Shown one piece after another: positions 3,372-17,385 of a stretch of DNA of 64,000 nucleotides. Numbering within the stretch: position 1 is the first letter of the stretch; every line of letters starts with the position of its first letter. Origin of the DNA: Pelosinus fermentans JBW45 (GTDB lineage Bacteria; Bacillota; Negativicutes; DSM-13327); contig NZ_CP010978.1 in NCBI RefSeq assembly GCF_000271665.2, forward strand, positions 94,501 through 158,500, given 5' to 3'. Position numbers and translations under genes: made by a program. The notes under the pieces were generated by a model. It ran no database searches and was not told the origin of the DNA. It saw only the letters and a list, made by a program, of their open reading frames with translations.

Positions 3372-3475
3372 TTTGATTATGGAATTTATCAAATCATTCT
3401 TAAAAGAATATCGGATAGTAAACCATTGAAAGAGCAATTCAAAATTTAATCTAGAATGGGGAGAGGGGAATGATA

Positions 3476-6400
3476 ATGGCTAATCAAGCAGTGACGGCAA
3501 TTGCTCAAGAGATGCTCCATGAAAAAGCAATCACTTATTTCAAAAAGCTACTTTCTTCCGTTATTAAACTACCAGCGAATCGAATCGAAGTAGATGCGCC
3601 AATGGAGAAATATGGAATTGATTCGATCATGATCATGCAAATGACCAATCAATTAGAAACAATATTTGGTTCTTTGCCAAAAACCTTATTTTTTGAATAC
3701 CAAAATATTCAAGAGATTACTGGATATTTTCTTGAATCTTATCGCGACCAACTGATAGAACTATTGGGAGTTGAGGAGAAAGCAACAGAAACCACTGAGA
3801 AATATGAGTATGCTATAACAGAAGTAGAGCCTGCAAAGTCAAGTGTAAGCAGCCGTAGACGTTCATTTTTTGCATCGCAGCGCATGAAAGCTCCGCAAGA
3901 AAAAAGTGAACAAGACTCAGATATAGCCATCATAGGTGTTTCAGGACGCTATCCTCAAGCCAAGAATATTCAAGAGTTTTGGGAGAATCTACGGGCTGGT
4001 AAGGATTGCATCACTGAGATTCCTCAAGATCGCTGGGATCATAGCCTGTATTTTGATGAAGATAAGGATAAGCCAGGAAAGACCTATAGTAAATGGGGGG
4101 GATTCCTCGACGGTGTTGATAAATTTGATCCCCTTTTCTTTAATATTTCACCACGTGAAGCAGAGTTTATAGATCCCCAGGAGCGGTTGTTTCTGGAATG
4201 TGCCTATGAAACATTAGAGGACGCTGGATATACACGGGAAACGATTGGTACGCATCAGGGGTTTGGCTTAGAGGGTAATGTAGGAGTTTTTGTAGGAGTT
4301 ATGTATGATGAGTACCAACTTTACGGCGCCCAGGAACAAATTCAGGGTAGACCAATAGCTCTTGCTGGAAATTCAGCATCAATAGCCAACCGTGTATCTT
4401 ATTTTTGTAATTTCCATGGACCGAGTATGACTGTAAATACAATGTGTTCTTCTTCGCTGATCGCAATTCATTTGGCCTGTCAGAGCTTACAACGAGGCGA
4501 ATGTGAGTTTGCAATGGCAGGTGGTGTTAATCTCTCAATCCATCCCAACAAATATTTAGCACTCGGACAAGGCAAGTTTGTATCCAGTAAAGGGCGTTGT
4601 GAAAGCTTTGGGCAGGGAGGCGACGGCTATGTACCAGGAGAGGGTGTAGGGGCGATACTCTTAAAACCGCTGTCGAAAGCGATTGATGACGGAGATCATA
4701 TATATGGCGTTATTAAAGGAACCGCAATCAATCATGGAGGGAAAACCAATGGGTATACAGTACCCAACCCCAATGCGCAAGCCAGTGTTATTGGAAGAGC
4801 TTTTAAGAAAGCAGGGATCAATCCAAGGACAATCAGTTATATTGAAGCCCACGGCACTGGGACTTCCTTAGGTGACCCAATAGAAACTGCGGGCTTGACT
4901 AAAACCTTTCAGGAATATACAAAAGACAAGCAGTTTTGTGCGATTGGTTCAGCTAAATCTAATATTGGACATTGTGAAAGCGCATCAGGTATTGCGGGGG
5001 TAACAAAAGTATTACTGCAGCTTAAATATCGTCAATTGGTGCCATCACTGCATTCTGAGATGCTAAACCCCAACATTGATTTTGGCAGGACGCCTTTTGT
5101 TGTTCAGCAGGAACTTACGGAATGGAACCGACCGGTGATTGAAATCGATGGAGAAATTCGAGAATATCCAAGGCGTGCTGGTATTTCATCTTTTGGTGCA
5201 GGAGGATCAAATGCACATGTATTTATTGAAGAATACATTGCTAAGGATCAACCGCTTTCTACAATGATTACTGCGAGGAATCCGGCAATTATTGCATTAT
5301 CCGCCAAAAATAAAAAGGGACTTAAAGAGCAGGCACAGCAATTGTTGGCTGTGATTGGTGAACAACAATTTTCAGATAAAAACTTGGCCGATATGGCCTA
5401 TACTCTTCAAGTAGGCCGGGAAGCTATGGAAGAACGTCTGGCGGTGATTGTGGGCTCTGTTAAAGAACTTGAGGACAAATTACAAGGTTTTGTGGAAGGT
5501 CAAGATGATATTGACGATCTGTATCGGGGGCAGGTCAAGCGTGATGCCGAGAACATGTCTGTTTTTACAGCGGACGAAGATATGAAAAAAACGATGGAAG
5601 CTTGGATGATCAAAGGGAAATATGCAAAAATTGCGGAGATTTGGGTCAAGGGTTTAATTATTGACTGGAATAAACTCTATGGCAATAGTAAGCCTTCCCG
5701 CATTAGCCTGCCCACTTATCCCTTTGCCAAAGAACGCTATTGGGTGCCTGAGAGCAATACAATACCCAATAATAAAATAACGAGTTCATCTAATGTAGCC
5801 TTACTTCATCCGCTATTGCACCAAAATACCTCCGACCTCTCTGAGCAGCGGTTCAGTTCGATTTTTACTGGTCAGGAGTTTTTCTTGGCAGATGATGTTG
5901 TGAAGGGACAGCGGGTGTTATCTGGAGCAATCTTTTTAGAAATGGCTAGGGCGGCAGTGGAGCAGGGTGCAGGAGTTTTGGCAGAAGATTTAATTGAAAT
6001 ACGGCTAAAAAATGTAGTTTTAGGGTGCCCCGTTGCCGTTGGACATCAGCCGGCACAGATACACATCGGACTCTACCCAGAGGAAAATGGTGAGATTGCC
6101 TATGAAATCTATAGCGAGTCAGAAGATACCGATGCAGAACCTATTGTACATAGTCAGGGGATTGCTGTACTAAGTTCGCTTGAAAAAGTTTCAACTATGG
6201 ATATCAAAGCATTACAGGCTGAGTGCAGCCAAAACACTCTTACGTCCTCCAGTCAAAACTATGAAACATTTAGGACAGCGGAGATTGAGAAGGTGTATAT
6301 AGGCTCAGATCAAGTGTTGGTGAAGCTGTACTTAGCATCACCTGTCGTCGCTGATCAAAATCAATTTGTCCTGCATCCCAATGTAATGAATGTGGTATTG

Positions 6401-9400
6401 CAAAATTTGGTTAGTTTCATGCCAGGTACCGATGATTTCAAACCAGTGCTTCCCATAGCCCTGCAAGAACTTGAAATCATTGAGAATTGCGCTTTTGCCA
6501 TGTGGGCTCTGATTCGCTGTAGTGAAGGTATGGCAGTGGGAGATAAGGAGCGGAAGTTTGATATTGACTTGTGTGACGAGCAAGGAAATATTTGTGTACG
6601 GATGAAGGGACTACGAACGCAAGGAATTGAAAACGTTGTTCAAGAATTGTTGCCAAGCCCACCAAGTATGGCAGTTCCAAATACACAAGAAGCTTTTGAG
6701 ATGATGAGCTTTGAAGAGATTTGGCAAGAGCAGGCCTTACTAACTACTACTCCAACTAAAATAAAAACCTTGGTTTGTTTTATTTCAAAACCGGAAAATC
6801 AGCAGACAATTATGGAAGAAATCGAAAATCTGGATCAAGAAACAAAGGTTATCTATATCTCACAAGGTACAGCTTTCGAAAAACAATCCCAACAAAATTA
6901 TAGTGTTGCCCGCACAGATCTAAGTACTTATAAAGAGGCTTTCGACAATATTCGAGAAGATTATAGTGAAGTGGATGCCATGTTATATCTATGGCCGATT
7001 GAAGATTCAAGCTGTATCCAAGATTACTCCAGTCTTGTCTATATTCTGCAGGCGATAGCGGGATCAAAGCTAAACACTAAGCGTTTGTTATTAGCGGGAC
7101 AATTTGCAAATAGGTTAGAACGTTGTTACCTGGAATCCTGGATAGGCTTTGAGATTTCCTTGGAATTTGTTCTGCCGAATATGCAAGTGGCAGCAGTATA
7201 TAAGGAGGCTTATCCAGAGAACAAGGAACGGGCAATAAGAGATTGGTTGAATACAATCTGGACAGAATTACAGGCTGACAAAATTCAAAGTGTTTTGTAT
7301 CAAGGGGGGAAACGGTCTGTACACAGAAGCCAGGCAACTGCAATGCAAGCGAATAGCAGTCTATTGAGAGCTGGCGGGACCTACCTCATTGTTGGAGGCT
7401 GCGGTGAAATAGGGTTCTTATTTGCTAAGTATTTTGCCCAAAAACATCCTGTGAATCTGATTCTAACTGGTCGATCTCCCAAAAATGAGGATAAGCAAGC
7501 AAAGATAAAGATATTGGAAGACTTAGGCAGTCAGATCATGTACATAGAGGCTGATGTTTGTGATGCAAGTGGTATGAAAGAAGGCTTGAGCCGGGCCAAA
7601 GAACGATTTGGGAAAATTCATGGAGTCATTCATGCAGCCAGGATTGAAAGTAAACAAAGCATTTTTGAAAAAGATATCCAAGGTTTTCAACAGGTGATTG
7701 CGCCTAAAATTACGGGGACCCTTGTGCTTGATGAAGTACTTGCAGCAGAGGAACTTGATTTCATCTGCTATTTTTCCTCATCTTCAGCAATTCTAGGAGA
7801 TTTTGGCTCCTGCGACTATGCTATTGGCAATCGCTTTCAAATGGCCTATGCTCATTACCGGAAGGAAGAGCAGCGTCATGGTAAGACCGTTGTCATTAAT
7901 TGGCCGCTATGGAAGGATTTCGGTATGGATGCCGATGAGAATGAGCACATCAAGATGTACCTGAAAACCAGCGGACAACGTTTTTTGGAAGCTGAAGAAG
8001 GTGTTGCCATATTTGAGCACATATTGGCTCAACACCAAACCCAACATTTAGTTGTAGTTGGACAACGCAGCCGTGTGCACCGTTTTTTGGGACTAGCTCA
8101 AAATCAATCTGCTTCATCGCCACAAGCTTTGACAAGTCCTGCAGTCAAAGGAAGACGGGCAGAAATGATAGGCTTGGATGCGGAACAATGCTTAGAGTGG
8201 GATTTGAAAGAGTATGTCAGTAAATTGCTTAAAATTTCCCGGGATAAGTTAGATAGAGAGATAAATTTGGTGGATTTCGGATTTGATTCCGTTGGTTTAT
8301 CTCAATTTGCAAAATTATTAACCAGCCATTATGGAATTGAAATTTCACCTGCAATATTTTTTGGATATTTTACAATTGAGAAATTAATTCAATATTTTAT
8401 CACCGAACATCAAGAGTTAATCCAGAACTATTATGAAGAAGATACTATACAGCAATCGATCTCACAAAAAGTTGAGACTATAGCCGTAAAGCCTAAGCAA
8501 CATAGAAATAAAAAATCAAGATTTAATAGGAACAGTGCATCTCCAAGTGGTTTGGAACCAATTGCGATTATTGGAATGAGTGGACGGTTTCCTGATGCTC
8601 GGAATATAGATGAGATGTGGAAGATTATTCTCGAAGGGCAGGATGTAGTAAAAGAAAATTCTGAAGACAAATTTTGGGGTATGGGCTTCGGGTCAAACAA
8701 ATGGAAATGTGGCTGGATTCCAGGTGTTAAGGAATTCGATCCCCTGTTTTTTGGAATTCCCCCTCGGGAAGCAGAAATGATGGATCCAAGGCAACGTCTA
8801 TTGCTGCAGGAGTCGTGGAGAGCTTTGGAAGACGCTGGATATGGTAAAGAGCGGATTAAAAACAGCACAATTGGGATGTTTGTAGGAGTTGAAGATGGAG
8901 ATTACCATATGCTTAGCAATGAAAAGGGAAGCGTTACGTCCAATCACAATGGAGTATTAGCGGCTCGATTAGCATATTTTCTAAATCTTGATGGGCCTAA
9001 TATGGCAATTAATACAGCCTGCTCTTCTGGTTTAGTTGCAGCTCATCAGGCATACCAAAGCCTACGCAACCAAGAGTGTGATACTGCAATTGCCGCTGGT
9101 ATAAATTTGCTGCTTACTCCAGGGGTCCTTACTGCCATGAGTCAAGCTGGAATGCTATCAGAGGACGGTAAATGCTATGCCTTTGATAAAAGAGCGAATG
9201 GAATGGTTCCAGGAGAAGCAATTGCTGTGGTTGTACTCAAGAGATTATCAAAAGCGCAGGCTGACGGGGATCCGATTTATGCAGTGATCAAAGGAAGCGG
9301 CATTAATTATGATGGAAAGACGAATGGGATCACTGTGCCAAGCGGGGTTTCACAAAGCAAATTATTAAAATCAGTCTACGATCGAAACAAGGTGAACCCG

Positions 9401-12400
9401 GAAGAAATTGAATACATAGTTACTCATGGAACGGGGACCAAATTAGGTGATCCGATAGAGATTAACGCATTATATGATGTATTTAAAGGCTATACAAAGA
9501 AACAGAGCTATTGCGCGTTAACCTCTGTAAAGACAAATTTTGGACATACGATGGCAGCATCTGGACTAGTTAGTTTAATCAGTATGGTACAGGCTTTGCG
9601 ATATGAAACAATTCCGGCAAGTCTGCATTGTGAGCAAGAAAATGATTATATTAATTGGCAGGAAAGTCCTTTTTATGTTAATAAAACAAATAAAATTTGG
9701 TCTAAGGATAATGGTAAACAGCGAAGCGGCTCGATCAGCGCGTTTGGGTTGAGTGGAACGAACGTCCATATGATCGTACAAAGCTATTCTGAGGCAGAAA
9801 ACACAGCCAGCTTGGAACAAATGCCATACTACCTGCTTGCATTTTCAGCAAAGACGAAGGAAGCGTTGCAGGAAAAGATTCAAGATATGATTGATGTACT
9901 ACAAAAGAAAGATGCGCAAGAGGCAAGTTTAGCTGAGCTTAGTTACACCTTGCTGCAAGGGCGGCAACATTTCAACCATCGTTGTGTGGTTGTAGTCCAG
10001 GGGCGTGAAGACGCCATATATGCACTGCAGCAAGTAAATGGTAAAGAACGACTGCCAAACTTGTTTCACGGAAAGGTTTCTCGGGAATTTACAAGACAAA
10101 AGGCGATAGAGCAGTATGCTCAAGAGTTGCTGGAAAACAGTCGATCCTTTCGAGAGAACAAGAGAAAGTACCAAGAAACTCTGTATGCGTTGGCAGAGTT
10201 TTATTGTCAAGGCTATGAAATTAATGGGGACATGTTCTATGGGGATAGAAAACCACGCCGTATTAGCTTGCCAACGTATCCCTTTGCTAGGACGCATTAT
10301 TGGGTGCCTGAAATCGATACAAAGCATGCAGATCATATAACAAGTCAATCGGTTGCTGAATTTATTCCTTCTCAAAATACAGAAAAAGTAATTCTTGAAA
10401 AAGGATGGCAGGAAAAAGCAATCCATCTAAAGGCTGAGATACAAACTGGAATAGTTGTTGTTTTAGGAACGGTTAACACGATGAAAATTGCCTCTGCACT
10501 CTTTGCAGATACGGAAGACATTCAAGTGATACAAGTGATACAAGTGATTCACGGTTCCAATCCTATATTGGAAGGAATATCGACAGATTTTTATTCTATT
10601 TCAGCAGGTGAATCTCTTTATCAACAAATGAAAGACAAACAAGGTGAGCAAAAATTAATTGGTGTTATTGATATTACAGCCTATGATGAAATGTATGAAC
10701 AGTCAGCAGCTGTAGAATCTGGGAAAATAACATTTTTGCAAAGATTGATTGCGCAAGACAGAAGTCAAGGTTATAAACTGTTACAAGTCACGCATCAATT
10801 ACATTCTTTCCAATTGGCAGAAACAAAAATGCAAGGTGCTCGTTTAGCAGGCTTGTACCGGATGTTAGGTTCCGAATATAAGCAAATTCAAAGTATGACC
10901 ATGGATAGCGATTATTTAATTCACAAGTATCAGCAGCTAGCACAGCAAATTGAAACTGAGTTCTGGAATATAGGTGACGAAAATCTTTCCGAGTGTTGTT
11001 ATCGAAAAGGCAAAAGAAATGAACCTCAGTTGACGATTTCTCAATCGAATGACGACATACAAGAGAAACTTCCTATTTCGAAAAAATATGAGCAACAGGA
11101 TGTTGTTTTAATTACCGGCGGAACGCGTGGAATTGGCGCGGTAATTGCAAAACATGTTGTTTCACAAGGGGTTAAAAACCTTGTAATTATGGGAAGAGAA
11201 GAATTGCCCAAGCCGAACGAATGGAATCAGTATCTGAAAAACAAAGAAAAACCGGAGGTTGAAGAAAAACTAAGGCGTATGCAATCCTTTATTGATCAGG
11301 GAGTAAAGGTTAATTACTTTAATACATCTTTAACAGATCAAGATGGGATCAATAATATGGTACATAAAGTCAATCAAGATTTAGGCCCTATTACGGGTGT
11401 TTTTCACTGCGCAGGAGTCATAAATAAAAATCCTGCATTCATCAAAAAATCAATAGCAGACATGGAAGCGGTTTGTGAGCCAAAAATGAAAGGGCTAGTG
11501 ACCTTACATAAAGCTCTTGAAAATGAACCATTAGCTTTTTTCATATTGTTCTCATCAATCTCAAGTGTTGTACCAACATTATCTGCGGGTGCAAGTGATT
11601 ATGCCATGGCGAATAATTACATGGATTATTATGCCCAGTATCAAATTGGGCAAGGAAAGTCTTATTTTAAATCCATTCAATGGCCGGCGTGGGGTGAAAC
11701 GGGTATGACTAAGGGCGGGCTGCGTACACCTGCTTATATGAAGACAGGTCTTGTATCTATTACAACGGCGGATGGATTAACATTTTTGGATATTATAGAA
11801 TCTACGTCTCAAATTGTTAACTTACCTTGTGTGGTAGTTCCAGGTGAATTCATGCACAATCAGTTGCTAAAACCAACTATCACAGTAGAGAAAAAAGAAG
11901 CTGGCTTACCGTCACGAAGAACATCAACGTTGAAGCAAAAGACGGAAAATACGCAGGGTGTTCAAGCAAATTTACGGGCATCTATTCTTAAGTGGCTGCA
12001 GAAAATTTTTATGGATGAATTTAAATTTTCAATGGATCAATTACATGAAGACATCCCCTTTGATGAATATGGTGTTGATTCAATGATGTTAGCCGAATTG
12101 GCACAAAAGATGCAAATGAGTATAAGTGAACCCCTTAATCCGTCATTACTCTTGGAAAACAGTACTTTGGCTTTACTGACAGATTATTTTATGGATAATC
12201 ATTTTGAAGATTTACAAGAACAGTTTGGAAGCGAGACAAGCAATACAATACACGTTTCTTCAAAAGAAAATAGTATTTCTATGAAAGCAGAACCTTTACA
12301 AATAATAAGTATAGAATCAAAGGATGACAACAGGAACGTTTCTGATAATCAATCAACAATTACTAATGAAACACTAAGTTTAAAGGAAGACATTGCGGTA

Positions 12401-13786
12401 GTAGGTATCGCTTGTCGATTTCCAGGGGCATCTACCAAAGAGGCTTATTGGGAGTTACTAAATAAAGGATTATCTGCGATCGAACCTGTGCCGAAAAAAC
12501 GATGGAGCCCTAAAGATGAACGCATGGACTATGGTGGATGGATTGATGATATAGACTTGTTTGATCCAAAATTTTTCAATATAAAGGAGCTTGATGCAGC
12601 CATTATGGATCCGCAAGCGCGCATCCTTTTAGAAGAAAGTTTACAAGCAATTTATGATGCAGGCTATGAACATAAACAGTTATCAGGAGAAAAGATAGGG
12701 GTCTATATCGGTGGACGTTCCCATGCTAATACGAATGTGAATGCCGTCTTACAAGCGCCTAATCCTATTTTGGGAATTGGTCAAAATTATATGGCAACAA
12801 ACATTTCAAGATTTTTCAATTTTAAAGGACCAAGTTTAGTAGTCGATACAGCTTGTTCATCAGGAATAACCAGTTTGTTATTTGCGGCTGATTCCCTAAG
12901 AGAAAAAAGAATTAACATGGCTTTGGTTGGGGCGGTAAACCTACTATTGAATTCTTCTGTTCATGACATGTTTGCTGCTCGAAATATTCTAAGTAAAGAT
13001 GGGGAATTTCATATCTTTGATAAACGGTCCAGGGGAGAAGTATTAGGGGAAGGAGCCGGCGTTGTTATGCTAAAACGGCTCAGTGATGCGATTAAAGATG
13101 GAAATCATATTTATGGTGTCATCAAAGCTGTTTCAGTGAATAATGATGGGCGAACGCTTGGGCCTGGATCACCTAATATCAATGCGCAAAAGGAAGTCAT
13201 GCGGGAAGCGTTAGTATTAAGCGGAAAACAGCCTGACGATATCGGATATATTGAAGCCAATGGAGGCGGAACAGCTGTGGTTGATTCTGTTGAAATCAAA
13301 GCATTGTCTGAGGTCTATTGCCTTGATAACCAAGAGCTGGCAGCATGTGCTATAGGATCAATCAAGCCCAATGTTGGACATCTATTGTTTGCGTCAGGAA
13401 TGGCTGGATTTATCCGCTGTGTGTTAAGTGTGTACCACAAACAAATTCCTCCTTTCTTATCTGCAACAGAACCATTTCCACACTATAATTTTAATAAATC
13501 ACGGGTACAGTTTAATCGACAAACGATACAATGGGATGTTGCGGAAGGTAAAAAAAGAGTTGCGGCGCAAAATTCGATGCCAGATGGCGGAACAAACTGT
13601 CATGTGGTTATAGAGGAATTTGTGCCGGAAAATATGTCTTATCATCCCATATATCGCCCTAAAATAGCGCCAACAATGATAAAAAAAGCGTTAAGCAGTG
13701 TTGAGAAAAACTTAACAGAGCAAAAACAACAAGAACCAAAGATCGTCAGAAATAAATGGGGCGAATATAGCGTGTCTGGGAAATAA
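3476..13786 (+). CDS. Trans-AT polyketide synthase, ACP-KS-DH*-KR-ACP-KS-KR-ACP-KS0
   Basis: Giant multidomain PKS of about 3,436 residues without AT domains. Domains, numbered from an ATG two codons upstream at 3470: ACP (Ser52), KS (Cys326, His461), a dehydratase-like fold about 780-1050, KR about 1300-1500 (Tyr1450), ACP (Ser1607), KS (Cys1851, His1986), KR (Tyr2711), ACP (Ser2871) and a C-terminal KS (Cys3129). The DH is degenerate: Asp809 replaces the catalytic His, Ser818 the motif Pro and Asn974 the catalytic Asp, so it should not dehydrate. The last KS has EANGGGT instead of EAHGTGT (Asn3264), the signature of a non-elongating KS0. The ATG at 3476 is preferred because the GAGAGGGG ribosome site lies only one base from the ATG at 3470. 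The ACP at the N-terminus completes the upstream module and the KS0 at the C-terminus starts a module finished on the next protein. Confidence 0.93.
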   Translation: MANQAVTAIAQEMLHEKAITYFKKLLSSVIKLPANRIEVDAPMEKYGIDSIMIMQMTNQLETIFGSLPKTLFFEYQNIQEITGYFLESYRDQLIELLGVEEKATETTEKYEYAITEVEPAKSSVSSRRRSFFASQRMKAPQEKSEQDSDIAIIGVSGRYPQAKNIQEFWENLRAGKDCITEIPQDRWDHSLYFDEDKDKPGKTYSKWGGFLDGVDKFDPLFFNISPREAEFIDPQERLFLECAYETLEDAGYTRETIGTHQGFGLEGNVGVFVGVMYDEYQLYGAQEQIQGRPIALAGNSASIANRVSYFCNFHGPSMTVNTMCSSSLIAIHLACQSLQRGECEFAMAGGVNLSIHPNKYLALGQGKFVSSKGRCESFGQGGDGYVPGEGVGAILLKPLSKAIDDGDHIYGVIKGTAINHGGKTNGYTVPNPNAQASVIGRAFKKAGINPRTISYIEAHGTGTSLGDPIETAGLTKTFQEYTKDKQFCAIGSAKSNIGHCESASGIAGVTKVLLQLKYRQLVPSLHSEMLNPNIDFGRTPFVVQQELTEWNRPVIEIDGEIREYPRRAGISSFGAGGSNAHVFIEEYIAKDQPLSTMITARNPAIIALSAKNKKGLKEQAQQLLAVIGEQQFSDKNLADMAYTLQVGREAMEERLAVIVGSVKELEDKLQGFVEGQDDIDDLYRGQVKRDAENMSVFTADEDMKKTMEAWMIKGKYAKIAEIWVKGLIIDWNKLYGNSKPSRISLPTYPFAKERYWVPESNTIPNNKITSSSNVALLHPLLHQNTSDLSEQRFSSIFTGQEFFLADDVVKGQRVLSGAIFLEMARAAVEQGAGVLAEDLIEIRLKNVVLGCPVAVGHQPAQIHIGLYPEENGEIAYEIYSESEDTDAEPIVHSQGIAVLSSLEKVSTMDIKALQAECSQNTLTSSSQNYETFRTAEIEKVYIGSDQVLVKLYLASPVVADQNQFVLHPNVMNVVLQNLVSFMPGTDDFKPVLPIALQELEIIENCAFAMWALIRCSEGMAVGDKERKFDIDLCDEQGNICVRMKGLRTQGIENVVQELLPSPPSMAVPNTQEAFEMMSFEEIWQEQALLTTTPTKIKTLVCFISKPENQQTIMEEIENLDQETKVIYISQGTAFEKQSQQNYSVARTDLSTYKEAFDNIREDYSEVDAMLYLWPIEDSSCIQDYSSLVYILQAIAGSKLNTKRLLLAGQFANRLERCYLESWIGFEISLEFVLPNMQVAAVYKEAYPENKERAIRDWLNTIWTELQADKIQSVLYQGGKRSVHRSQATAMQANSSLLRAGGTYLIVGGCGEIGFLFAKYFAQKHPVNLILTGRSPKNEDKQAKIKILEDLGSQIMYIEADVCDASGMKEGLSRAKERFGKIHGVIHAARIESKQSIFEKDIQGFQQVIAPKITGTLVLDEVLAAEELDFICYFSSSSAILGDFGSCDYAIGNRFQMAYAHYRKEEQRHGKTVVINWPLWKDFGMDADENEHIKMYLKTSGQRFLEAEEGVAIFEHILAQHQTQHLVVVGQRSRVHRFLGLAQNQSASSPQALTSPAVKGRRAEMIGLDAEQCLEWDLKEYVSKLLKISRDKLDREINLVDFGFDSVGLSQFAKLLTSHYGIEISPAIFFGYFTIEKLIQYFITEHQELIQNYYEEDTIQQSISQKVETIAVKPKQHRNKKSRFNRNSASPSGLEPIAIIGMSGRFPDARNIDEMWKIILEGQDVVKENSEDKFWGMGFGSNKWKCGWIPGVKEFDPLFFGIPPREAEMMDPRQRLLLQESWRALEDAGYGKERIKNSTIGMFVGVEDGDYHMLSNEKGSVTSNHNGVLAARLAYFLNLDGPNMAINTACSSGLVAAHQAYQSLRNQECDTAIAAGINLLLTPGVLTAMSQAGMLSEDGKCYAFDKRANGMVPGEAIAVVVLKRLSKAQADGDPIYAVIKGSGINYDGKTNGITVPSGVSQSKLLKSVYDRNKVNPEEIEYIVTHGTGTKLGDPIEINALYDVFKGYTKKQSYCALTSVKTNFGHTMAASGLVSLISMVQALRYETIPASLHCEQENDYINWQESPFYVNKTNKIWSKDNGKQRSGSISAFGLSGTNVHMIVQSYSEAENTASLEQMPYYLLAFSAKTKEALQEKIQDMIDVLQKKDAQEASLAELSYTLLQGRQHFNHRCVVVVQGREDAIYALQQVNGKERLPNLFHGKVSREFTRQKAIEQYAQELLENSRSFRENKRKYQETLYALAEFYCQGYEINGDMFYGDRKPRRISLPTYPFARTHYWVPEIDTKHADHITSQSVAEFIPSQNTEKVILEKGWQEKAIHLKAEIQTGIVVVLGTVNTMKIASALFADTEDIQVIQVIQVIHGSNPILEGISTDFYSISAGESLYQQMKDKQGEQKLIGVIDITAYDEMYEQSAAVESGKITFLQRLIAQDRSQGYKLLQVTHQLHSFQLAETKMQGARLAGLYRMLGSEYKQIQSMTMDSDYLIHKYQQLAQQIETEFWNIGDENLSECCYRKGKRNEPQLTISQSNDDIQEKLPISKKYEQQDVVLITGGTRGIGAVIAKHVVSQGVKNLVIMGREELPKPNEWNQYLKNKEKPEVEEKLRRMQSFIDQGVKVNYFNTSLTDQDGINNMVHKVNQDLGPITGVFHCAGVINKNPAFIKKSIADMEAVCEPKMKGLVTLHKALENEPLAFFILFSSISSVVPTLSAGASDYAMANNYMDYYAQYQIGQGKSYFKSIQWPAWGETGMTKGGLRTPAYMKTGLVSITTADGLTFLDIIESTSQIVNLPCVVVPGEFMHNQLLKPTITVEKKEAGLPSRRTSTLKQKTENTQGVQANLRASILKWLQKIFMDEFKFSMDQLHEDIPFDEYGVDSMMLAELAQKMQMSISEPLNPSLLLENSTLALLTDYFMDNHFEDLQEQFGSETSNTIHVSSKENSISMKAEPLQIISIESKDDNRNVSDNQSTITNETLSLKEDIAVVGIACRFPGASTKEAYWELLNKGLSAIEPVPKKRWSPKDERMDYGGWIDDIDLFDPKFFNIKELDAAIMDPQARILLEESLQAIYDAGYEHKQLSGEKIGVYIGGRSHANTNVNAVLQAPNPILGIGQNYMATNISRFFNFKGPSLVVDTACSSGITSLLFAADSLREKRINMALVGAVNLLLNSSVHDMFAARNILSKDGEFHIFDKRSRGEVLGEGAGVVMLKRLSDAIKDGNHIYGVIKAVSVNNDGRTLGPGSPNINAQKEVMREALVLSGKQPDDIGYIEANGGGTAVVDSVEIKALSEVYCLDNQELAACAIGSIKPNVGHLLFASGMAGFIRCVLSVYHKQIPPFLSATEPFPHYNFNKSRVQFNRQTIQWDVAEGKKRVAAQNSMPDGGTNCHVVIEEFVPENMSYHPIYRPKIAPTMIKKALSSVEKNLTEQKQQEPKIVRNKWGEYSVSGK

Positions 13787-13800
13787 AGGAGGAAAAGCAA

Positions 13801-16800
13801 ATGGATAAGCAATTTAACACGATTATGGATTGTAATAACCAAATTATAAAAAACCATTTGGTCTATGGAGAATTTCTGCTGCCGGGGCTTGCTTATATTG
13901 ATATACTATTTCAAATCGCTCAATCGAACGGATTTGATGTGCATAAAACTGTCTTAAAGAATATTTCTATTTTCAATCCTTTAGTTGTTAGAGAAGATCT
14001 AAGTATTGATCTTACTATTTCATTCAAGGAACATAATGGCTATTGTAAAATTCTTGTTGAGGGAATTGGAAAAGGGATAAATGGGGAAATCGTTCAGGCA
14101 CATAAAAAATATATGAGTGCAGAATTACATCCTAATGATGGAGTGTCCTTTGATCAAACGATTGACATTGAAGATATCAAAAGAAGGGCCGCACATATCG
14201 TTAATATTGAAGAGGCATATACTCAGGCGCGAAAAAATGGCTTAGTTCACCAAGATATTATTAAAGCAAATGGCAATGCTTATCTTACGGATGAAGGTGG
14301 ATTATTCAATCTTGCTGTACCGACAAATTATATTGAGGATGCAAAAGACTATATTTTTCATCCCACCTTACTTGATAGTAGTACTATGGTTGCAACTATG
14401 GTACTCAAAAGCCTGCTATCTGGGAAAAGTGATCAACATGTTGAAATCCTTTATATTCCGATCTTTTATGAAGCTTTTTTTGCTGCTGAATTACTACAAG
14501 CACAATGTTATGTCAGAGTTCTGGCATCCAGTGTAAGCGTTATCAAAGATATTGTCTATTTAGATATTGAGTTTTTTGATGAAAAAGGTAAACAAATAGG
14601 CATTCTAAAACGTTTGACGCTTAAACAAATTCGGTCTAAAGATACTCTGATTTCTCCTCAAGCAACGGTATCGAATATGCCAAAGCATGATGTACCATCA
14701 GTATCTGTGACACCATCGCTTAATGATCAAACGATATCAAATGAGACATTAAAGACAATATTAACTAATATTTTTGGGAAATATTTAAAAATGAAGCCAC
14801 ACCAAATTAATCTTCAACTTGGATTCTTTGAACTTGGTTTAGAATCGGCAGAACTATTAGAGGTGATAACAGAACTTGAAACCATTTTGGATAAAACGTT
14901 AAATCCAACTTTATTATTTGAGTGCAATAATATTGAGGAATTGATCACTTATTTCGAACAAGAAGAGTTCGATCAAGCAAATACAAATAAAAGTATGACT
15001 GACACGTTTATTGGGAGCAAAAAGGTTGTATCAGAGTCTAATCAGGAGTCTCTGAATAAATGCCAAGAAACGGACATCGCCATTATTGCTCTTGAAGGGC
15101 GATATCCAGAAGCGAGAAACATCCAGGAATTTTGGGGAAATTTGCAAGATGGTAAGGATTGTATTGTTGAAATCCCCAAAGAACGCTGGGATTATAGTTT
15201 GTATTTTGATGAAGATAGGAACAAGCTTGGGAAAACCTGCAGTAAGTGGGGCGGATTTATAGATGATGTGGATAAATTTGATCCACTTTTTTTTAATGTT
15301 GTCCCCAAATATGCAGGAATCATGGATCCTCAGGAACGTTTATTTTTAGAATGCGCTTGGAACTTATTTGAAAGTATTGGCTATACAAAAGAAACTTTGC
15401 AGCGACTGTATCAAGGCAGAGTTGGGGTGTATGTTGGAGCAATGTATATGCAGCATCACTTTTTTGATGCAGACGTTGCCACAGAATCTGCACTTACGAT
15501 CTCTTCTTATGGCTCTATAGCAAATCGTGTTTCTTACTATTTTAATTTACAAGGTCCGAGTGTAGCTGTTGATACTATGTGTTCGTCTTCTGCTACAGCA
15601 ATTCATATGGCTTGTGAAAGTATCATAAGAGGAGAATGTCAGGCTGCAATTGCTGGAGGGGTAAATGTTTCCATTCATCCCAAAAAATATGTGGGATTAA
15701 GCCAAGTTCAATTGCTGGGAAGTCATCTTAATTGCAGAAGTTTTGGTGATGGGGACGGATATATACCTGGCGAAGGTGTTGGTGCAGTATTATTAAAACC
15801 GCTCTCTAAAGCAATTCAAGATAAGGATTCCATTATAGCTGTAATTAAATCAACAATAACCAATCATGGAGGTCGCGGTAATGCGTATGCTGTTCCCAAT
15901 GGAAATGCGCAAGCCCGATTAATCGAAGACAATTTTAAAAAATCAGGTATTGATCCTCGGACCATTAGTTATGTCGAAGCAGCTGCAAATGGATCAGCTT
16001 TAGGCGATCCTATTGAGTTTAATGCATTGACGAGAGTATTTAAAAAGTATACTTCTGATCAGCAGTTTTGTGCAATTGGGTCTGTGAAATCCAATATTGG
16101 TCACGTCGAAGCTGCTTCAGGAATAGCTCAATTGACCAAAGTAATTCTACAATTGCAACATCGTCAATTAGTTCCATCAATTAAGGCAGATCCTCTTAAC
16201 CCCAATATAAACTTTAACAACACCCCATTTTATCTGCAGCGAGAACTTCAGGAATGGAAAAGACCTATACTGATGATTAATGGTGAGGAATGTGAATTTC
16301 CACGGCGTGCAACAACATGTGCATTTGGGGCGGGAGGGTCTAATGCTCATCTTATTATAGAGGAGTACATTCCAAACCAGGAAGAACCGGTTGATGATCG
16401 CTTTATAGAAACGCCTCAGATTATGATCTTTTCAGCGAAAAATCAGGAGAGATTATTGGCAGTTGCTGAACAAATGCTTATATGTTTTGAACGACAAAAA
16501 GAATTGAATTTAGCAGATGTAGCGTATACGCTTCAAGTTGGCCGTGAAGCGATGGACTCTCGTTTAGCAATCGTTGTGAGTAACCAAGAAGAGCTGGTAA
16601 ACGTTCTGAAGGAGTTTCTAAAATCGGCTAAAGAAAATAAAGAGATAGATGATTTCATTCCCCTTTTCACATGGGATTTGGGAGAAGCTGATTCGCCAAT
16701 TAGAAGCTTTCTTTCAGGAGGCTTGGGGGAATCTGTAGTTCAAGTGCTCTTGGCGGAAAGAAATCTTGAAAAACTTGCAATTTATTGGACCCAAGGCGGA

Positions 16801-17385
16801 AATATACCATGGGAAGTACTCTATAATGGACAAACAGTTCGAAAGATTTATTTGCCCAACTATCCTTTTGCTAGAGAGCGTTATTGGATTTTAACAAGTG
16901 AAGTAACCAATCATCAGTCAACTATAACTGAATTATTTGAGGAGGAAGAATTTAAGTTTACAATCGATCCCCATAAATCAACACAGGAAAATATCCAGGA
17001 CTACAGTATGCAAATGTTAGCGAAAAAACTATGCATTGCCCAAGATCAAATTAAATTAAATAAAAATATCTATGATTATGGTATGGATTCAATTGTTATC
17101 ATGAAATTCATGCATGAATTTGAAAAACAATTTGAAATCAAGGTTACATTTAGGGATGTTGTGGAATATGAAACACTGGCTTCTTTATCGACTTATCTTG
17201 CTCAAAAAGTAGACAGCCAAAAGAATCAAAATAAACAAGCTGTGAATAGCAAGCTGGAAGAAGAGCAACAGAAAATGGGTGAAACTATTGATGAACAAGT
17301 AGTAGGGGCGCTGGAAAAACTTGTACAAGGAGAACTTCGCCTAACAGAGGTCAGGAAACTAATAGAAGGAGGGGGAAAAATATGA
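13801..17385 (+). CDS. Trans-AT polyketide synthase, DH-ACP-KS0-ACP
   Basis: Protein of 1,194 residues, 14 bases after the previous gene, with AAAGGAGG before the ATG. It opens with a dehydratase whose HxxxGxxxxP motif is intact (His19) and whose Asp192 is kept, followed by an ACP with Ser349 in the unusual setting LGLES. Next is a ketosynthase with Cys594 but AAANGS in place of the AHGTGT loop (Ala728 at the His position), so it probably only transfers the chain. A second ACP (Ser1097, GMDSI) and a charged, probably helical tail ending in GGGKI follow. The N-terminal DH belongs with the KS0 at the end of the preceding protein, giving the second half of a dehydrating bimodule. The final ACP presents the chain to the condensation domain of the next protein. 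Confidence 0.92.
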   Translation: MDKQFNTIMDCNNQIIKNHLVYGEFLLPGLAYIDILFQIAQSNGFDVHKTVLKNISIFNPLVVREDLSIDLTISFKEHNGYCKILVEGIGKGINGEIVQAHKKYMSAELHPNDGVSFDQTIDIEDIKRRAAHIVNIEEAYTQARKNGLVHQDIIKANGNAYLTDEGGLFNLAVPTNYIEDAKDYIFHPTLLDSSTMVATMVLKSLLSGKSDQHVEILYIPIFYEAFFAAELLQAQCYVRVLASSVSVIKDIVYLDIEFFDEKGKQIGILKRLTLKQIRSKDTLISPQATVSNMPKHDVPSVSVTPSLNDQTISNETLKTILTNIFGKYLKMKPHQINLQLGFFELGLESAELLEVITELETILDKTLNPTLLFECNNIEELITYFEQEEFDQANTNKSMTDTFIGSKKVVSESNQESLNKCQETDIAIIALEGRYPEARNIQEFWGNLQDGKDCIVEIPKERWDYSLYFDEDRNKLGKTCSKWGGFIDDVDKFDPLFFNVVPKYAGIMDPQERLFLECAWNLFESIGYTKETLQRLYQGRVGVYVGAMYMQHHFFDADVATESALTISSYGSIANRVSYYFNLQGPSVAVDTMCSSSATAIHMACESIIRGECQAAIAGGVNVSIHPKKYVGLSQVQLLGSHLNCRSFGDGDGYIPGEGVGAVLLKPLSKAIQDKDSIIAVIKSTITNHGGRGNAYAVPNGNAQARLIEDNFKKSGIDPRTISYVEAAANGSALGDPIEFNALTRVFKKYTSDQQFCAIGSVKSNIGHVEAASGIAQLTKVILQLQHRQLVPSIKADPLNPNINFNNTPFYLQRELQEWKRPILMINGEECEFPRRATTCAFGAGGSNAHLIIEEYIPNQEEPVDDRFIETPQIMIFSAKNQERLLAVAEQMLICFERQKELNLADVAYTLQVGREAMDSRLAIVVSNQEELVNVLKEFLKSAKENKEIDDFIPLFTWDLGEADSPIRSFLSGGLGESVVQVLLAERNLEKLAIYWTQGGNIPWEVLYNGQTVRKIYLPNYPFARERYWILTSEVTNHQSTITELFEEEEFKFTIDPHKSTQENIQDYSMQMLAKKLCIAQDQIKLNKNIYDYGMDSIVIMKFMHEFEKQFEIKVTFRDVVEYETLASLSTYLAQKVDSQKNQNKQAVNSKLEEEQQKMGETIDEQVVGALEKLVQGELRLTEVRKLIEGGGKI

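Follow-up and report, generated by a model that had tools for sequence, protein, structure and literature searches.

Dead dehydratase (DH) domains have been reported in several lines of trans-AT polyketide synthases (PKSs) (PMC9600693, PMC6855096), and in actinobacterial cis-AT systems an inactive DH is present in 17% of gamma-modules (PMC11228615). Among trans-AT systems, recombination usually takes place at the LPTYPFx5W site (Mabesoone et al., PMC11260071), KS domains co-evolve with the processing domains upstream of them (PMC11260071, PMC7930024), and an Asp residue marks the B-type KRs (PMC5331325). Since dead DHs are common in PKS modules, the dehydratase described here from module 9 of a trans-AT PKS of Pelosinus fermentans JBW45 (hereafter DH9) is in itself ordinary. 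The reading that we prefer, with a probability of about 75%, is that DH9 is a dead, fold-retaining DH at a natural fusion point, that the KR9 block behind it is foreign, and that the beta-hydroxyl formed by module 9 ends the polyene.

Cluster organization and the dehydratase of module 9

The window, that is, the whole stretch of 64,000 nucleotides that was analysed, corresponds to C1:94501-158500 of the 5.38 Mb single-contig genome. The PKS cluster spans C1:60898 to 115808 and comprises, in order, free-standing AT genes, eight KS-DH modules (7/8 with a KR), the ORF at window positions 3470-13786, a DH11-ACP-KS12-ACP segment and a C-A-PCP-TE module. An AT domain is absent from the PKS ORF and an AT gene lies at C1:60898-61851, which places module 9 among trans-AT PKS modules. 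A PfaD-family protein is encoded after the C-A-PCP-TE module, and this family is the usual trans enoyl reductase of trans-AT PKS clusters. The features discussed below are as follows (window positions, all on the forward strand).

1191-2042, +: DH8 of the upstream module, the intact comparator
3470-13786, +: trans-AT PKS ORF, ACP-KS9-DH9-KR9-ACP-KS10-KR10-ACP-KS11
3920-5239, +: KS9, Cys-His-His intact, of the polyene KS clade
5807-6616, +: DH9 (aa 780-1049), dehydratase of module 9, very likely inactivated
5894-5896, +: catalytic His replaced by Asp809, codon GAT
5921-5923, +: Pro of HxxxGxxxxP replaced by Ser818, codon TCT
6275-6283, +: site of an in-frame deletion of 9 aa that removed YGxxHQG
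6389-6391, +: catalytic Asp replaced by Asn974, codon AAT
6596-6647, +: switch point from polyene-type ACP-KS-DH to foreign KR-ACP-KS
7376-7927, +: KR9, Lys-Ser-Tyr-Asn kept, without the B-type Asp
8204-8422, +: module-9 ACP, sharing 73% identity with that of the second PKS block
8558-9790, +: KS10, from a KS clade whose members mostly follow KR9-type modules
13801-14619, +: DH11, His and Asp present, behind KS11, which is probably non-elongating

The replacements of His by Asp809, of the motif Pro by Ser818 and of Asp by Asn974, which an earlier reading of this DNA had put forward (the original prediction), can all be read from the codons at 5894, 5921 and 6389. A fourth lesion had been overlooked, in which nine residues are gone and the GLxYGxGHQG motif with them. 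HxxxGxxxxP, YGxxHQG and DxxxQ are all hit and therefore every active-site motif of DH9 is damaged, the Gly of HxxxGxxxxP and the Gln of DxxxQ being retained. DH9 thus falls outside the canonical active DHs, in which HxxxGxxxxP, YGxxH/F and DxxxQ are preserved, and has the character of an inactive DH (DH0), with the His of HxxxGxxxxP and the Asp of DxxxQ/H both absent. A misplaced alignment could have produced such an appearance, but DVVKGQRVLS faces HVVKGQRVLP and HPNVMNVVLQ faces HPSLMDAALQ, and because the alignment around the lesions is unambiguous, no shift can rescue the His or the Asp. In the alignment of the 23 DHs from the genomic PKS regions, DH9 alone is missing the catalytic His. 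The change of Pro to Ser is not diagnostic on its own, because DH3 of the same cluster has this Ser as well while keeping its His and Asp, and Ser-bearing DHs have been annotated as active in some cases and as inactive in others (PMC9600693). The CurK structures 5tz5 and 5tz7, in which this His or this Asp alone is mutated, were each deposited as an 'inactive mutant'. Judged by its motifs, DH9 is very likely catalytically dead.

The claim that the fold is kept agrees with an AlphaFold model, built with 40 relatives, in which DH9 forms a confident double hotdog (pLDDT 89.4; Z 34.5 to PksJ DH1), the low-confidence parts being mainly the deletion site and the C-terminus; the double hotdog is that of a DH0, and Pfam PKS_DH_N and PS-DH both score above cut-off. 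The closest solved structures, at 42-53% identity, are 5hqw, 7zmf and 5j6o of Brevibacillus brevis and PksJ DH1 (8qk4). A codon model in which a single branch was given its own dN/dS yielded an omega of 0.40 on the DH9 branch vs 0.185 elsewhere (p 0.0025) and rejected neutrality (omega below 1, p 0.001); omega was 0.17-0.26 on six other DH branches and 0.06 for KS9. DH9 is under relaxed constraint with an omega still below 1, a value that fits either a weakly constrained scaffold or a full late relaxation, because the branch includes evolution both before and after the DH was inactivated.

Retention of the fold and of constraint below neutrality, together with the alignment of the enoyl-isomerase structure 4u3v at Z 24, could be taken to mean that DH9 has acquired other chemistry, as a double-bond isomerase, a pyran synthase or another dehydratase-like enzyme. 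We consider this extremely unlikely, as DH9 is without the His yet has the Gln of DxxxQ; to our knowledge, isomerases, pyran synthases and similar DH-like domains retain the His. Published double-bond shifters are recognized by the absence of both the motif Pro and the Gln/His of DxxxQ/H (PMC9600693), and DH9, with Pro lost, Gln kept and His lost, does not belong with the enoyl isomerases.

Origin of module 9 and the probable DH/KR junction

The original prediction regarded module 9 as a recent duplicate of the whole upstream module, with very similar flanks, in which the DH had decayed in place. The upstream flank is indeed similar to module 8 (ACP ~79%, KS 84%, and 74% DNA identity over the related ACP-KS-DH), and it can be upheld that DH9 arose by duplication among the cluster's repeated KS-DH units; the downstream flank is not similar, the identity of KR9 to the KR of the upstream module being 46% and saturated. 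KS9 is 84-89% identical to KS2, 3, 4, 7 and 8 (89% for KS3 and KS4, 84% for KS8), and module 4 is nearer than module 8 (75-84% in KS). The dS values to module 4 are 0.780 for KS9-KS4 and 0.778 for DH9-DH4, and their equality indicates that KS9-DH9 was probably copied as one unit; those to module 8 are larger (KS 0.934, DH 0.973). These distances suggest that KS9-DH9 was probably copied long ago, from or with module 4.

Only ACP-KS-DH is common to module 9 and the polyene modules, and KR-ACP-KS10 is of another origin. KR9, the ACP and KS10 share 70, 73 and 74% identity with a block at C1:1.049 Mb, in a second PKS of the genome, vs about 40-46% to the polyene block, and are related to their counterparts in module 8 only at the family level. 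The change-over in similarity falls at aa 1043-1060, at the C-terminus of DH9 (permutation p 0.0005), other comparators placing the switch between aa 920 and 1073. A recent copy of the upstream module, very improbable as an explanation, was rejected on the dS of about 0.9 to module 8, the comparison of nearest modules, and the origin of KR9, ACP and KS10; neither the recency nor the whole-module extent of the proposed duplication is supported.

The position of the junction relative to DH9 has one alternative. In the DH tree, the upstream DH8 is neither supported nor excluded as the sister of DH9, and in an AU test the likelihood was equal or slightly better when DH9 was held with the other KR9-associated DHs; by thirds of the domain, polyene DHs are clearly favoured in the first third only, with 78% (DH4) vs 61% identity. 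If DH9 did group with the KR9-associated DHs, the junction would lie before the DH, at LPTYPF, and DH9 would be part of the foreign block. This arrangement is not favoured, because of the dS shared with module 4 and the 78% first-third identity to DH4, and a junction at the C-terminal end of DH9 is adopted below.

More recent events are visible elsewhere in the genome. A 3.2 kb tract running from the end of KS4/KS6 through DH and KR (C1:77501-80725 vs C1:85311-88535; L010, L011) is 95.8% identical, with DH and KR practically identical, and represents a truly recent copy or gene conversion within the cluster. The second PKS/NRPS cluster holds a 3.15 kb direct repeat of 99.8% identity (C1:1037587-1040736 and C1:1043178-1046327), a very recent duplication. 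A close orthologue of the cluster was found neither in ten genomes of the family or order, nor in 398 genomes of the phylum queried with KR9, nor in a genome-contig scan with KS9-DH9 (best match 56%), and there was no plasmid match.

Dehydratase decay and the type of the downstream KR

KR9 belongs to a KR clade of 13 members. At the region of the B-type Asp (LDD) it reads ARIESKQ, where its relatives read AGLADSQ and the polyene KRs AGVIRDN, and absence of the B-type Asp from this region is the A-type condition. The diagnostic A-type Trp is not in KR9 SSSSAILGDFGSCDY; as A-type KRs beside dead DHs are without it too (PMC11228615), its absence points to neither configuration. In a hand tally, a degenerate DH preceded the KR in 7/9 KR9-type modules with a readable DH vs 2/28 modules with an Asp-bearing KR (Fisher p 1e-4). 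The tally counts orthologues separately, uncorrected for shared ancestry, and stands for some three to four independent lineages. Three of the seven are orthologues (c2_1058339, L061 and L064) in which HxxxG is short by one residue and Asp has become Asn; L063 has His to Tyr, Pro to Ser, Tyr to Cys and Asp to Asn, L065 has lost the first motif, and the remaining two are DH9 and the distant L067. KR type is not always paired with a dead DH, since the KR9-type modules c2_1043083 (c2A) and L062 keep the DH motifs, including His and Asp. In two distant KR9-type modules, the DH is absent altogether.

The second PKS cluster contains a second probably dead DH (L014:11108-11959; C1:1061108-1061959) before a KR9-type KR, with a residue lost between the His and Gly of HxxxG, Asp changed to Asn, and orthologues in three sister genomes. 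In sister genome G003, the DH at L063:3692-4552, also before a KR9-type KR, has lesions closely parallel to those of DH9, and at about 5473-5548 of L065 a frame change (p0/p2 overlap) lies between a degenerate DH and a KR9-type KR, reflecting a frameshift or an assembly error.

The decay of DH9 appears to fit better with the type of KR behind it than with recent module duplication. A more general proposal, which we hold only tentatively and at less than even odds, is that a KR of the trans-AT clade without the B-type Asp allows its module to do without the DH, so that the DH would decay and then be lost after KR-ACP-KS joins KS-DH; the relatives show intact, degenerate and absent stages of the DH before KR9-type KRs. 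If this were true, recombination at the DH/KR boundary would constitute a repeatable natural switch from alkene to hydroxyl.

KR9 departs from all of its relatives in reading HAAR for HAAG and IVGG for ITGG, and its branch has an omega of 0.39 (p 0.025 vs background) that is not distinct from 1. KR9 may consequently be impaired, and module 9 may deliver a beta-keto product, in which case a dead or impaired KR9 would have deprived the DH of its substrate. This is an unlikely explanation, given that KR9 retains both its Gly-rich loop and the catalytic Lys, Ser, Tyr and Asn, and that the clade of KS10 is one found after reducing KR9-type modules. That clade has ten members, most of them behind KR9-type modules, as is expected if KSs co-evolve with upstream processing domains.

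Proposed product and comparison with known systems

Under the preferred reading, an ACP-KS-DH unit, an old copy within the polyene part with module 4 as its nearest relative, would have been joined at the C-terminus of the DH to a foreign KR-ACP-KS block of a type that also occurs in sister species and in the genome's second PKS. In module 9, KS9 would condense, KR9 would reduce to the beta-hydroxyl, in a configuration that may be that of an A-type KR, and the chain would pass without dehydration to KS10. With dehydration no longer of use, the DH would have decayed (His to Asp, Pro to Ser, loss of YGxxHQG, Asp to Asn), the change of KR presumably preceding this decay, and DH9 would persist as a spacer or dimer scaffold. 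Alkene to hydroxyl is accordingly the likeliest chemical result that we would assign to a dead DH9.

KS11 (12389-13624) and KS12 (in the ORF at 13801-17385) lack the first catalytic His (EANGGGT, EAANGS). The active-site His of KS11 is replaced by Asn, and both domains are probably non-elongating, with DH11 between them; in dehydrating bimodules, a DH stands behind a non-elongating KS. This layout, with His and Asp present in DH11, raises the prospect that the hydroxyl of module 9 is removed in trans, for example by DH11, leaving a dead DH9 without chemical consequence. Such removal is very unlikely, as the substrate of DH11 would be the chain made by module 10, where a KR is present without a DH, and KS10 lies outside the polyene clade. 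We therefore retain a hydroxyl at module 9. KR10 of module 10 would act without a DH, and DH11 behind KS11, which probably dehydrates the module-10 product, would introduce an alpha,beta-double bond ahead of the NRPS module. On this scheme the acyl chain is predicted to terminate in polyene-CH(OH)-CH2-CH=CH-CO, which the NRPS module would amidate. Comparison of the KS clades with solved KS structures gave matches too distant or unlabelled for a substrate to be named. Pairing of the dead DH with an oxygenase (Baeyer-Villiger or other), known from split KS-DH modules (PMC9600693), was rejected, as the scanned ORFs adjoining the cluster include none for an oxygenase; among their products are the PfaD-type protein, an acyltransferase and a serine acetyltransferase.

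For the annotation of such clusters, a KS-DH-KR string read at face value would wrongly predict a longer polyene, and the type of KR behind a DH may serve to flag dead DHs. For engineering, fusions at the DH/KR boundary may be tolerated as well as those at the LPTYPFx5W site already in use.

LasH DH1 and LasM DH2 of the lasonolide trans-AT PKS (PMC9600693) resemble DH9 in having the fold without His and Asp and an expected beta-hydroxyl; DH9 differs in that YGxxHQG is also lost and in its position at a block junction before a KR clade with recurrent DH decay. In structure, DH9 is like 5hqw, 7zmf and 5j6o of Brevibacillus brevis and bacillaene PksJ DH1 (8qk4), at Z about 34, but the three Brevibacillus structures carry the catalytic residues where aligned and DH9 does not. 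Cis-AT gamma-modules (PMC11228615) share with module 9 the KS-DH-KR-ACP order, a dead DH and a hydroxyl product, which for module 9 is predicted, whereas the gamma-module KRs beside dead DHs are mixed with others and mostly of B-type, and those described here form one clade without the B-type Asp. As in known trans-AT recombination, blocks are mixed, KR-ACP-KS move together and the KS goes with its upstream processing domains; unlike at the usual LPTYPFx5W site, the apparent switch lies at the C-terminus of the DH, about 280 aa after the LPTYPF of KS9. As far as we know, DH decay that appears to follow one KR clade is not commonplace in the literature compared.
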